DNA of 64,000 bases from Yinghuangia seranimata (GTDB taxonomy: Bacteria > Actinomycetota > Actinomycetes > Streptomycetales > Streptomycetaceae): assembly GCF_029953285.1 (NCBI RefSeq), contig NZ_JASAOI010000046.1, forward strand, positions 1 to 64,000, written 5' to 3'. The notes beneath the pieces were generated by a model. It ran no database searches. It was not told the DNA's origin and worked only from the letters and a program-made list of their open reading frames with translations. A program made the translations under genes and the position numbers. Positions 2,868 to 46,307 of the stretch are shown here, piece after piece (position 1 is the first letter of the stretch; each line of letters begins with the position of its first letter).

Positions 2868-4685
2868 TCAGTAGCTCAACCCGAACCCGAACTCGAACAC
2901 CGCGTCCTTGCTGTCGCTCGGCACGTCCTCCCGCTGGCCCTCGACGTCCGCCATCGAGCCCGGCAACTGGAACGGCAGTCGGCCCTCGGGCGTCGCGCGC
3001 CCGAACAGCACGTCCAGCAGCGGCCCGTCGCCCGCGCCGTAGTTGGCCACCAGGGCCGCCGCGCCCGCCGCGATCTCCGGCAGCACCGCGGGACGCTCCA
3101 GGTACACGTCGACCACGGTCGGCACGGTGCCGCACAGCGCGAGGATCCGGCCGAGCTCCTCCTCGCCGAACGCCAGCGAGCCGGAGTGGAAGAACGCCTC
3201 GAACGGGCCCTTGGCCGGGTCCCACGGGGTACGCGTGCGCAGGATCGCCACGTCGGCCTCCTCGGGCGTGGCCACGACCGTGCCGTAGCCGGCCGCGACG
3301 CCCGCGTCGACGCCCTCGACGTACACCTTGGTGCCCGCCGCGAGCGGCAGCACCGGGGCGCCGCCCTCCGCGCCGTTCTTCAGCAGCGTGATCGACCGGC
3401 TCTGCGCCGCGAGCCCGGCCGCGATCGCCTCGGGCGTGCCGACGAGCGTGTCGGCGGCCTCGATGTCGACGAACGGCTCGTCGAACAGGCCGAGGACGAA
3501 CTTCTCGCGCAGCAGCCGCTTCACCGACGTGTCGATGCGCTCCTCGCTGACCTTGCCGGCCCGCACCAGCGCGACGACCAGCTCGGGGCACGCCTCGCCG
3601 CCGAACTGGTCGCAGCCGGCCTCGATGACCTTCTGCACGCGCTCGGACTCGGTGAGGTGCTCGACACCCCACGCGCGTGCCGGGTAGGAGGCGCCCATGA
3701 TCTCGGCGTCGGAGATGAGGCCCCAGTCGGTGCACACGATGCCGTCGAAGCCGAGCTCCTCGCGCAGCAGCCCGGTGATGACGCCCTTGTTGAAGCCGAA
3801 GGCGACCTCTTCCATGTCCGTCTCGATCGGCATGCCGTAGTAGGGCATCATCTGCGACGTCCCGGCGGCCAGCGCCTTCTTGAACGGCTCGAGGTGGTAC
3901 TCGAACATGCCGCCCGGGTAGACCTGCTCGCGGCCGTCCGCGAAGTGCGGGTCGGAGCCGTCCTTCTGCGGTCCGCCGCCGGGGAAGTGCTTGGTCATCG
4001 CGGCGACCGACTCGGTGCCCAGCTCGGGGCCCTGGAGGCCCTCGATGTACGCGGCGACCATGCGGCCGGTCAGCTCGGCGTTCTCGCCGAAGGTGCCGTT
4101 GATGCGCGACCAGCGGGGCTCGGTCGCCAGGTCGATCTGCGGGTGCAGCGCGAGCCGGATGCCGACCGCGAGGTACTCGCGCCGCGCGATGTCGGCGAAG
4201 TCGCGCACCAGGTCGGCGTCGCCGATCGCGGCGAGACCGCAGGTCTCGGGGAACTGCGCGAAGCCCTGCGCCATCGCCGCGGTGCCGGGGTTGTCGGTGA
4301 AGTGGTGGCGCGGGTCGGTCGACAGCGTGACCGGGATGCCGAGCCGGGTGCCGAGCGCGATCTCCTGCACGGTGTTGTGCCAGGCCGCGATCTGGCTGGG
4401 CTCGGCGCCGCCCATGAGGTTGAAGTGCGACATGGCGCGCTCGGCGATCAGCTGGCGCACCGTGGCGTTGCCGGCGAACAGCTCGGCCGGGTCCTCGATG
4501 AGCACGCCGTCGGGGCCCATGATCGCGATGGTCTGGAACATCAGACCGGCCTTCTCCTCGAGCGTCATGCGCCCGAGCAGGTCCGCGACGCGCTCGTCGA
4601 CCGGGAGCGAGGGGTCCTCGTACGGGGCGTCGGCGGCGCCGCGGAAGCGGTTGCGGGCCGAGGCGTCCGCGATGGGGGTGGTCAT
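2868..4685 (-). CDS. Glycoside hydrolase family 3 (beta-glucosidase type)
   Basis: The 605-residue product begins with the family 3 N-terminal hallmark (DERVADLLGRMTLEEK) and has no evident signal peptide, so it probably acts in the cytosol. KHFPGGG near residue 232 and the TDWG motif near residue 320, whose Asp is the family nucleophile, mark an active (beta/alpha)8 domain. The second alpha/beta sandwich domain follows, but no fibronectin-III tail is seen. Family members remove glucose, xylose or N-acetylglucosamine from non-reducing ends; the sugar cannot be told here. The ATG at 4685 has AGGAGG upstream. A perfect 9+9 palindrome lies 66 bases upstream at 4751-4776 and is a likely operator. 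Confidence 0.92.
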   Translation of the reverse strand: MTTPIADASARNRFRGAADAPYEDPSLPVDERVADLLGRMTLEEKAGLMFQTIAIMGPDGVLIEDPAELFAGNATVRQLIAERAMSHFNLMGGAEPSQIAAWHNTVQEIALGTRLGIPVTLSTDPRHHFTDNPGTAAMAQGFAQFPETCGLAAIGDADLVRDFADIARREYLAVGIRLALHPQIDLATEPRWSRINGTFGENAELTGRMVAAYIEGLQGPELGTESVAAMTKHFPGGGPQKDGSDPHFADGREQVYPGGMFEYHLEPFKKALAAGTSQMMPYYGMPIETDMEEVAFGFNKGVITGLLREELGFDGIVCTDWGLISDAEIMGASYPARAWGVEHLTESERVQKVIEAGCDQFGGEACPELVVALVRAGKVSEERIDTSVKRLLREKFVLGLFDEPFVDIEAADTLVGTPEAIAAGLAAQSRSITLLKNGAEGGAPVLPLAAGTKVYVEGVDAGVAAGYGTVVATPEEADVAILRTRTPWDPAKGPFEAFFHSGSLAFGEEELGRILALCGTVPTVVDVYLERPAVLPEIAAGAAALVANYGAGDGPLLDVLFGRATPEGRLPFQLPGSMADVEGQREDVPSDSKDAVFEFGFGLSY

Positions 4686-4750
4686 GGTCACGGCCTCCTG
4701 GCGGCGTGCGGAAATGCGGGTCGGGCACGGGCCCGGGCACATCGTTCCAC

Positions 4751-4776
4751 GAAAACCTACCGTTCACTAGGTTTTC
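4751..4776. promoter_or_regulatory. Palindromic operator upstream of the GH3 gene
   Basis: The arms GAAAACCTA and TAGGTTTTC are perfect reverse complements separated by the 8 bases CCGTTCAC. The element sits between the leftward GH3 gene (start 4685) and the rightward VTT gene (start 4878), where a repressor could control either. No regulator gene lies next to it. The call rests on symmetry and position only. Confidence 0.6.
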
Positions 4777-4877
4777 ATGGGCGGCATCCGCGCGCCCCCC
4801 GGCGGTTTCCGTACAATCGGACGGCGGCCGTCCGGCCGCGACGACCGGCGCGACGGCACGAGGGGTGGGGGATCCGG

Positions 4878-5516
4878 ATGTTCGACGGCGTCCGGGACTT
4901 CCTGCTGCACGGCTCGTGGACCGAGTACCCGACCCCGGTGACCATCGGCGTCTTCGTCGTCTTCTGCGCGCTCGGCGTGGCCTTCGGCATCCCCAAGACG
5001 CTGCTCGCCCCGATCGCTGGGGCGCTGTTCGGCGTCTACACAGGCCTCGTCGTGGCGATGACCGGAACCGTCCTCGGCAGCCTGCTGGCGCTCGGCATCG
5101 GCCGCAGGCTGGGCCGCGAGCGGGTCCGCCGCCTGCTGCACCGCAAGCAGGCGCTCGCCGACCTCGACGCGCGGCTGACCAGGCACGGCGTCGTCCCCGT
5201 CGCGATCCTGCGCCTTGTCCCGGTGCTCCCCGGCTCCGTCGTCAACTACGGCGCCGCCGCCACCGGCATCCGGACCTCGCACTTCGCCCTGGGCAGCACC
5301 ATCGGGCTGCTCCCGGCCACGGTCGTGCAGGTCGCCGCGGGGGCCTCGGTGCGCGACGGGCTGTCCATGCCGGTGCTGGTGAGCGCGACCGCCGGGGTGC
5401 TGCTCGTGCTGGGCGCCATGGTGTGGGCGCGGCGCCGCTCCGAGGCCAAGGCCGGCGCGGAGCGCGCCGAGACCGAGGCCGCCCCCGTCAGTGAAGGCCC
5501 TGTCGCCGCTGCTTGA
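4878..5516 (+). CDS. VTT/DedA-like (SNARE-associated) membrane protein
   Basis: This 212-residue membrane protein has a helix near residues 20-60, the GALFGVYTGLVVAMTGTVLGS core and an LRLVPVLPGSVVNYGAAATG segment. These features are typical of VTT-domain (TVP38/DedA) proteins, which carry out lipid or proton-linked functions in the cytoplasmic membrane. A C-terminal helix ends in a charged Ala/Glu-rich tail. The ATG at 4878 follows AGGGGTGGGGGATCCGG. The gene ends inside the tail of the convergent ion-channel gene, with a 29-base overlap. No partner gene suggests a specific role. Confidence 0.8.
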   Translation: MFDGVRDFLLHGSWTEYPTPVTIGVFVVFCALGVAFGIPKTLLAPIAGALFGVYTGLVVAMTGTVLGSLLALGIGRRLGRERVRRLLHRKQALADLDARLTRHGVVPVAILRLVPVLPGSVVNYGAAATGIRTSHFALGSTIGLLPATVVQVAAGASVRDGLSMPVLVSATAGVLLVLGAMVWARRRSEAKAGAERAETEAAPVSEGPVAAA

Positions 5517-44397: not shown

Positions 44398-44783
44398 GCT
44401 GCGGCGCGCGCGGGTTCTGGCGTAGGGTCTCGGGGGCCGCGGGGTACGCCGGACGGGGTACTCGCGGCTCGTCCGCCATCGGGCGTTCCGCCCCGGTCGC
44501 GAACGACGCAACGACGCAACGACGTAACGACGTAATGACGTAGCGACGCGACGACGCCGGACCAGGCTCGGCGACGGCGAGGCGCACGCCACGGCACCAC
44601 CACGACGCACACGCAGGTCCGCACCACTACCGGCAGGCCCGCCAACCCCGGGCCCGTCGAAGCACTCCGCACCACACCGCACCGCCCGACGGGCGCCGCC
44701 ACGGCGTCGCGGTCGCGCAGGCGGTCAGTCCAGCAGTCACTCCGGCCCGTCCCGGCCGGACGCGCGGCACGGGGAGTCGGGTT
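44398..44783. other. Intergenic region containing a tandem repeat
   Basis: No gene is supported between the ADP-ribosylglycohydrolase and the agarase-like gene. The main feature is the 8-bp tandem array at 44502-44557, listed separately; the remainder is C-rich, unstructured sequence. Confidence 0.5.
44502..44557. repeat. 8-bp tandem repeat, seven units
   Basis: Seven adjacent 8-base units follow AACGACGC, drifting through AACGACGT, AATGACGT, AGCGACGC and GACGACGC. The first two are identical, as are the third and fourth. Short non-coding tandem arrays of this kind arise by slippage and vary in length between strains. Confidence 0.85.
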
Positions 44784-46307
44784 ATGCGGCGGTTGCGGTA
44801 CGCGCCTCAGCGGCGGCCGTCGGTGGGCTCGGAACGGCCGGGGGTGGGCTCGGATCTGGTGCCGGCCGAGGCACCGGGCACACCGGCCGTCAGGCCGTCG
44901 GCCAAGCCCGTCGCCAGGACATCGGCCCAACCGGCCGCCAAGTCACCGGCCGAGCCCGTCGCGAACTCGCTCGCCAGGACCCCGGCCAGGACACCCGCCA
45001 AGCCCTCCGGCCGCCACGCCGCCAAGCGTCCGCCACGCAAGGCCCCGGCCCTGGTCAAGCCCCTGGTCAAGCCCCTGGTCAAGCCCCTGGTCAAGCCCCT
45101 GGTCAAGCCCCTGGCCCTCGTGACCGCCCTGCTGTCGGCCGTCACGCTCGTCCTGCTCGCGACCGTGTCCGGCTGCAGCTCGCACGATGCCCACAGCGTG
45201 CCGTTCGGTCCGACGGCGCCGATGCCGCAGGTGGCGAGGCAGCCGGTCGGGCCGTCGGACGGGACCGGGTACTACCGGGTGGCGCAGGAGCCGTCCGGCC
45301 GCTGGATGCTGCGGACGCCCGACGGCAGGCCGTTCTACTCGCTCGGTGTCGACGCGGTGCGCCTGGACGAGGCGACCGACCAGGCGACGGGGCGTTGCCC
45401 GTACTGCGAAGCGGCCGCCGCCGCGTACCCGGACCCGGGTGCGTGGGTGGCCGCGACCGGCGGTCGGCTGTCGAACATGGGCTTCAACACGCTGGGGCCG
45501 GGGTCGCGCTTCGAGGTGTTCGGCGCGCAGTTCGCGTACACGCCGCAGCTCGACCTGTCGGTCGGCGGCCCCGCGGACTGGTTCGACCCGGCGTTTGCGA
45601 CGCACGCGCAGGAGGTGCTGCGGGCCCGCACGGCGCGGCTCGCCGAGGACCCGAACCTGCTCGGCTGGTACCTCGACGGCACGCTGCGCTGGGACGTCGG
45701 GCTGCTGGACGAGTACCTGGCGCTGCCCGAGGGCAGCCCGGGCCGGGAGGCGGCCTCGGCGTACCGCGGGGATCCGTCGGGGTTCCTGGAGTCGCTGGCG
45801 AGCCACTACTTCGAGGTGACGACGCGTCTGCTGCGTGAGTTCGACCCGCACCACCTGATCCTCGGCGTGCGGGCGTCCTCGGCGACGCCGCCGGAGGTGG
45901 TGCGGGTGGCGGGGCGGTACGTCGACGTGTTCAGCGTCGACGCCGACCGGGAGGAGCTCCCGGACCTCCAGGCGCTGCACGACCTGACCGGACGCCCGGT
46001 GCTGGTCTCGGCGTTCACGGTGCGGGCCGGGGACGCGGGGCTGCCGAACACCCGTCCGGAGGCCCTTCCGACGGTGGACACGCAGGAGGAACGCGGCGAC
46101 CGCTACGCCGAGTTCGCCGCCGCGATGATCGCCGACCCGTGGGTGGTGGGCCACAACTGGGGCCGGTACGTGGACGATCCCCCAGGCGGGGCGGCCGCGC
46201 CGGGCGGCGACAGCAACGTCGGCCTGGTCGGCGTGGACGACCAGCCGTGGGCGGCCCTGGTGCTGCGGGTGGCCGGCGCGAACGCCGCCGCCGCGGACCG
46301 GCGTTGA
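44784..46307 (+). CDS. Agarase-like glycoside hydrolase lipoprotein, probably a pseudoenzyme
   Basis: The 507-residue protein has a 110-residue cytosolic N-terminus rich in Ala/Lys/Pro. It includes five tandem VKPL units (encoded 45051-45110), then one hydrophobic segment ending in a lipobox-like TVSGC. The extracytoplasmic domain resembles beta-agarase-type (GH50-like) TIM barrels: SNMGFNTLG, LLGWYLDGTLRW, FDPHHLILGVR, and TQEERGDRYAEFAAAMIADPWVVGHNW. The acid/base site (normally DNE) reads D298-G299-T300, and the nucleophile site (normally a Glu before Phe) reads S409-A410-F411. Both catalytic glutamates appear replaced, so hydrolysis is unlikely; carbohydrate binding is possible. Confidence 0.75.
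   Translation: MRRLRYAPQRRPSVGSERPGVGSDLVPAEAPGTPAVRPSAKPVARTSAQPAAKSPAEPVANSLARTPARTPAKPSGRHAAKRPPRKAPALVKPLVKPLVKPLVKPLVKPLALVTALLSAVTLVLLATVSGCSSHDAHSVPFGPTAPMPQVARQPVGPSDGTGYYRVAQEPSGRWMLRTPDGRPFYSLGVDAVRLDEATDQATGRCPYCEAAAAAYPDPGAWVAATGGRLSNMGFNTLGPGSRFEVFGAQFAYTPQLDLSVGGPADWFDPAFATHAQEVLRARTARLAEDPNLLGWYLDGTLRWDVGLLDEYLALPEGSPGREAASAYRGDPSGFLESLASHYFEVTTRLLREFDPHHLILGVRASSATPPEVVRVAGRYVDVFSVDADREELPDLQALHDLTGRPVLVSAFTVRAGDAGLPNTRPEALPTVDTQEERGDRYAEFAAAMIADPWVVGHNWGRYVDDPPGGAAAPGGDSNVGLVGVDDQPWAALVLRVAGANAAAADRR
45051..45110 (+). repeat. 12-bp coding minisatellite (five VKPL units)
   Basis: CTGGTCAAGCCC is repeated five times without change inside the agarase-like gene. It adds Leu-Val-Lys-Pro units directly before the membrane segment. 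The period is a multiple of three, so copy-number change would keep the frame. Confidence 0.92.

Follow-up and report, generated by a model that had tools for sequence, protein, structure and literature searches.

Loss of both catalytic glutamates in a GH50-fold putative lipoprotein of Yinghuangia seranimata

We analysed a 64,000-nucleotide stretch of the Yinghuangia seranimata genome (the window), in which the plus-strand open reading frame at 44784..46307 encodes a 507-residue GH50-like putative lipoprotein whose two catalytic glutamates have both been replaced. From these replacements it is highly probable that the protein has no catalytic activity, and catalysis by the retaining mechanism in particular appears very unlikely, because this mechanism needs both glutamates. 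We lean towards the reading that it is a dead GH50-fold putative lipoprotein whose fold is still constrained, and that it is probably a non-catalytic surface protein. If the enzyme is dead, there is a fair probability that the fold is kept for a non-catalytic surface role, other than sugar binding in the old pocket, rather than fading.

The reading frame is a real gene. It has homologues, and its orthologue in Yinghuangia soli (L002, identical with L025, on NZ_JAKFHA010000001.1; genome G002) is 51% identical to the window protein and lies in the same gene order. A GGGGAG Shine–Dalgarno-like run is present upstream of its ATG. A 753-aa ORF on the minus strand overlaps 44784–46307; we rejected an antisense gene, as it is the plus strand that has the homologues and the syntenic orthologue. 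The first ~110 residues (44784..45113, plus strand, as are all features below) form a low-complexity, Pro/Ala/Lys-rich extension that is absent from the Y. soli orthologue. It leads into (LVKP)5, which lies directly ahead of the signal segment and is encoded by a perfect 12-bp tandem repeat (45049..45114; 5.5 copies, 100% matches). This repeat is perhaps length-variable among strains. A second tandem repeat, with an 8-bp unit (AACGACGC, 7 copies), occupies 44502–44557 in the gap upstream of the ORF. The extension is followed by a hydrophobic segment (45120..45176), read from the sequence, that ends in a lipobox-like V128-S-G-C131; its counterpart in the Y. soli orthologue is L-V-A-G-C44, with 44 residues up to and including the lipobox Cys. 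The first-pass annotation had called the protein a lipoprotein, which this hydrophobic run and lipobox-like motif make plausible, yet the ~110-residue extension precedes the signal segment. The GH50-like (beta/alpha)8 barrel itself, defined by sequence matches and the predicted fold, covers residues ~155–500 (45246..46283).

By sequence descent and predicted fold, the window protein is a GH50 (beta-agarase-type) barrel. Using phmmer (HMMER) against the PDB, we obtained 4bq4 at 1.5e-28, 4bq2 at 1.7e-28, 6xj9 at 1.1e-25 and 5z6p at 1.1e-24; the five chains at E ≤ 1 were all GH50 structures and all had E ≤ 2e-8 (BpGH50, 2e-8). Neither the window protein nor any of the relatives scanned reached the cut-off of a Pfam or NCBIfam model. 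The AF2 model of residues 131–507 has a pLDDT of 89.1 and a pTM of 0.87. When 999 PDB chains were aligned to it, the GH50 structures scored Z 33–38 and the next family Z 24.5, in line with the barrel type first proposed. The closest structures were 5z6p (Z 37.6, rmsd 2.9, 363 residues aligned) and 5t3b (Z 37.5, rmsd 2.6, 336 residues), followed by 6xj9 (Z 35.4, rmsd 2.6, 350 residues) and 4bq2 (Z 33.4, rmsd 2.7, 359 residues). The barrel is therefore common to the window protein and to Aga50D (4bq2–4bq5), AgWH50C (5z6p), PfGH50B (6xj9) and BpGH50 (5t3b), over 336–363 residues. A model of the Y. soli orthologue has the same closest structures, at Z 30–34. Both structure models are based on alignments A5 and A6 (20 rows), in which the row of L056 is in the wrong frame and adds noise; the L044 match contains one TAA, and its reading in A5/A6 begins downstream of that codon. 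In alignment A4, the row of L055 is shortened at its end.

In clan GH-A, the acid/base lies at the end of beta-4 and the nucleophile at the end of beta-7. Both sites of the AF2 model fall at strand ends (strands 294–298 and 406–411), which are beta-4 and beta-7 by our own count. At the acid/base site, D-G-T (residues 298–300; 45675..45683; codons GAC GGC ACG) replaces D-N-E or D-S-E, with T300 at the position of E534 of Aga50D and G299 at that of N533. At the nucleophile site, S-A-F (residues 409–411; 46008..46016; codons TCG GCG TTC) replaces x-E-[FY], with A410 at the position of E695. The HMMER alignment to GH50 sets D298-G299-T300 on D-N-E and S409-A410-F411 on G-E-F. We considered a misalignment that hides other glutamates and rejected it, as the window protein has no Glu at either site in HMMER alignments to the PDB or in alignments of 2, 4, 17 and 50 sequences. 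The two motifs and the absence of a catalytic Glu had been read correctly in the first place.

The changes extend beyond the catalytic pair. For Aga50D, PMC11079163 gives E534 and E695 as the catalytic residues and adds N533, F742, R752 and E757 to the active site; we placed these numbers on the alignment as chain index + 43. At N533/E534/E695/F742/R752/E757 of that list, the window protein reads G, T, A, G, A and G, so that all six listed residues differ. The Y. soli orthologue reads D, D, E, Y, R and Q at the same positions, and each of the nine closest intact relatives reads S, E, E, F, R and E; the N533 position is thus already Ser in these relatives. The three further changed residues of this list, G460 (F742), A470 (R752) and G475 (E757), lie within 46161..46208. 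At the position of D388 (45945..45947), Tyr is found in Y. soli and in all nine intact relatives; D388 is next to a deletion, its register is uncertain and one alignment gaps it differently. Two loops are shortened in the alignment, by ~6 residues after W303 (loop after beta-4; 45690..45695) and by ~18 residues after R389 (loop after beta-6; 45948..45965). In total, the window protein lacks 25 columns that are filled in 9/9 intact relatives (in stretches of 6, 1 and ~18). Y. soli lacks none of these columns; it keeps both loops together with the nucleophile E, the Tyr and the Arg and reads D-D-D at its acid/base site. The first description of the motifs around the catalytic sites as intact does not fit these losses. 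Compared with GH50 beta-agarases, the window protein is lipoprotein-like and has both catalytic glutamates and four other listed pocket residues replaced, and 'agarase', as a name given by similarity, would be wrong for it.

To place these losses among the conserved positions, we counted changes at the 120 positions at which the nine intact relatives do not vary. Of these, 39 are changed in the window protein and 41 in Y. soli, with 28 changed in both. Taking ≤3 residues from the six listed sites as near the pocket, a definition of our own set after the list of losses was known, the window changes cluster there (12/18 versus 27/102 elsewhere, Fisher p 0.0018). The Y. soli changes show no clear clustering (9/18 versus 32/102, p 0.18), and changes found only in the window are marginally enriched (4/18 versus 7/102, p 0.06). 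Since Y. soli has changed as many of these invariant positions as the window protein, a large part of the drift came before the nucleophile was lost or ran alongside that loss. Seventeen homologues with both glutamates share 35 invariant positions; the window protein keeps 30 of these, the changed ones being F164, W175, E300, Y388 and E410; Y. soli has changed 8, and Y388 and E410 are the only ones changed in the window and not in Y. soli.

Among 50 distinct homologous domains aligned (two short candidates, L074 and L010, and duplicates were left out), 36 have both glutamates, one (Y. soli) has the nucleophile only and 13, the window protein included, have neither. Eleven of these 13 carry D-[IVAT]-P at the acid/base site and D at the nucleophile site, one (the second ORF of L059) has Q-M and D, and the window protein stands alone. 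In a tree built from 30 of these 50 homologues, the window protein and the Y. soli orthologue are sisters (100/99) and fall within a clade with nine intact members (99/98). These nine, namely L026 (a Candidatus Binatia MAG), L027 (an Actinomycetes MAG) and L043–L049, form the closest clade outside the genus and were chosen on score and tree position, without regard to their residues. They represent an uncharacterised GH50-like subfamily that is 37–43% identical to the window protein and shares common motifs with it; in contrast to the window protein, all nine keep D-S-E, x-E-Y and the pocket F, R and E. The expectation that the G-T and A substitutions might be conserved in orthologues is therefore not borne out: 9/9 of the closest relatives outside the genus are E/E, and the one same-genus orthologue is D/E.

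With E/E in nine relatives, D/E in Y. soli and T/A in the window protein, all in one clade, the site has eroded stepwise in one lineage. The loss is lineage-specific, and Y. soli, which has lost the acid/base Glu and kept the nucleophile, is an intermediate. The barrel descends from a retaining hydrolase, and the gene would now encode an exported, probably lipid-anchored GH50-type barrel unable to hydrolyse glycosides. Pocket constraint may first have been relaxed in the Yinghuangia lineage, where the acid/base E is gone in both species, as are the 28 invariant residues changed in both; the nucleophile, the pocket Arg and the two loops would then have been lost in the window lineage and not in that of Y. 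soli. Any role retained by the window protein could be that of a scaffold or a protein contact at the cell surface. More tentatively, we envisage a change from enzyme to non-enzyme in progress, with Y. soli half-dead, the window protein one step further and the barrel under selection for a new non-catalytic role. The clade contains intact, half-way and fully eroded forms, of which the half-way and the eroded one share their gene order. This makes it possible to test directly in what order the residues were lost (acid/base in both species, nucleophile in one) and whether any function is retained.

We compared the window and Y. soli genes for signs of selection on the protein. NG86 gave a dN of 0.42, a dS of 0.69 and a dN/dS of 0.61, the highest of six gene pairs, as five neighbouring genes gave 0.13–0.34 for the same pair of genomes. 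GY94 rejected omega = 1 for the pair (2dL 142.9); its fit was saturated, with t over 300 for the GH50-like gene and one neighbour, and we use only this rejection. Selection in these comparisons refers to the window/Y. soli pair as a whole, with the time before and after nucleophile loss taken together. Tajima counts of window-unique versus Y. soli-unique changes did not differ significantly with any of 9 outgroups (lowest p 0.10). In the maximum-likelihood tree, the end branch of the window protein (0.72) is longer than that of Y. soli (0.57). Neutral simulations with half the NG86 dS, 0.35 changes per site, altered ~52% of residues on a single branch, and the window/Y. soli pair differs at 49% of residues over both branches. 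This, together with the rejection of omega = 1, indicates some constraint: the protein has been constrained for much of its history, more loosely than its neighbours. The window gene contains no internal stop codon. Simulated neutral copies stayed stop-free in 15–31% of cases at a GC equilibrium of 0.95, in 5–21% at 0.85 and in 0.3–11% at 0.72, and a stop-free frame is therefore weak evidence by itself.

The main rival to a constrained non-catalytic protein is a decaying relic, that is, an enzyme useless in the genus whose gene is becoming a pseudogene and has remained open since stops arise slowly in very GC-rich DNA. The high dN/dS, the two loop deletions, the change of every listed pocket residue, the repeat-expanded N-terminus and the share of neutral copies that stay stop-free at a GC equilibrium of 0.95 all suit such a relic, as does its distribution: matches to the window protein occur in 3/61 genomes, its own included, and in 2/3 genomes of the genus, and among the 30 genera of this 61-genome sample no other genus has a match with E below 1e-100. 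Three results speak against it, namely the rejection of omega = 1, a rate that is not significantly different from that of the Y. soli copy, which keeps its nucleophile, and a residue divergence over both branches below what neutrality predicts for one. We consider decay possible, if rather doubtful. The reading of a dead but constrained barrel draws on its descent, the replacement of the two glutamates and of the remaining listed pocket residues, the Y. soli intermediate, the intact frame and the selection on the pair; against it stand the loose constraint, with which decay is possible, and the low-complexity extension and 12-bp repeat ahead of the signal, which suit a drifting gene. Of the selected pseudoenzyme first proposed, the loss of both glutamates and some protein-level constraint stand, and the dead state is not common to the orthologue, as Y. 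soli keeps the nucleophile.

The same proposal gave the protein a carbohydrate-binding or sensing role, with a glycan bound in the old active-site cleft. A surface-type lipoprotein with a glycoside hydrolase barrel would suit this, and there is a precedent in PMC12406646, where dead HPSE2 appears to counteract active HPSE1. By analogy, heparanase 2 and the window protein may both be glycosidase folds without activity. HPSE2 as described there has an active relative, whereas searching the window protein against its own genome gave no further match at E ≤ 0.001, a threshold that a very distant GH50 could escape. Given the changes at the Arg752, Phe742, Asn533 and Glu757 positions listed in PMC11079163, and the two shortened loops, sugar binding in the old pocket appears unlikely. 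Aga50D and AgWH50C carry N-terminal CBM domains according to the same paper, and we saw no counterpart of these domains in the window protein. The six neighbours scanned (an ADP-ribosylglycohydrolase, a VOC protein, an aldehyde dehydrogenase, an HD protein, a thiolase and one without a Pfam family) include no recognisable sugar or agar gene. Glycan binding elsewhere on the protein could occur; in the old cleft, we regard it as improbable, and the role first proposed gains no positive evidence from the pocket, the neighbours or the search of its own genome.

The ADP-ribosylglycohydrolase (PF03747; 43414..44397) lies upstream of the GH50-like gene and the Glyoxalase_6/VOC protein (PF18029; 46383..46769) downstream, both on the plus strand and both placed likewise in Y. 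soli. Counterparts of the former occur in 3/3 genomes of the genus (69% in G002, 62% in G001; L081, L082, L086). In G001, the third genome, it sits in another setting, the other tested neighbours are absent from its 8-kb surroundings, and there is no GH50-like match. The neighbourhoods of five intact relatives had no common partner among the 10 of 30 listed ORFs scanned; in L026 (JAIEPK010000662.1), the intact GH50-like gene lies between genes that, judged by eye, encode putative type IV pilus assembly ATPases.

A first search of genome contigs with the window protein found no relative. Wider searches, own genome included, matched 7/391 genomes for the order, 8/394 for the class and 6/396 for the phylum, and searches around relatives, centres included, matched 9/198 around the L027 genome and 24/193 around the L026 genome; several of the matches in the wider searches are weak or fragmentary. 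Carriage as plasmid cargo gained no support, with no DNA match among 72,556 plasmid records; the Y. soli protein matched 6 plasmid records, the best places being 24–28% identical.

The protein might instead still be an enzyme, with relocated or different chemistry that uses D388 or another carboxylate. The Tyr-to-Asp change at 388 puts a new acid near the old site, and the separate GH50-like group without both glutamates (11/50) shares conserved motifs, so that functional barrels lacking these residues may exist. The window protein, however, is without that group's motifs and falls outside the five of its 11 members placed in the tree, and its pocket is eroded, not re-conserved. We regard continued catalysis of this kind as highly improbable and retain the reading of a dead, constrained barrel. 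In the literature searched, by title, we found nothing on a dead GH50.

The separate group (L005 at 4037–5248, L007, L008, L015, L016, L020, L029, L030, L031, L059 at 1390–2874, and L073) may represent a GH50-like barrel of different chemistry and is a more deserving subject for a separate study than the window protein. Its members carry A-D-[IT]-G in 7 cases and W-H-W-C in 10/11, and 9/11 come from Actinomycetota, the phylum sampled most. L005 lies beside a sugar ABC transporter, a VOC protein and SDR dehydrogenases, and L016 beside a periplasmic-binding-protein gene.
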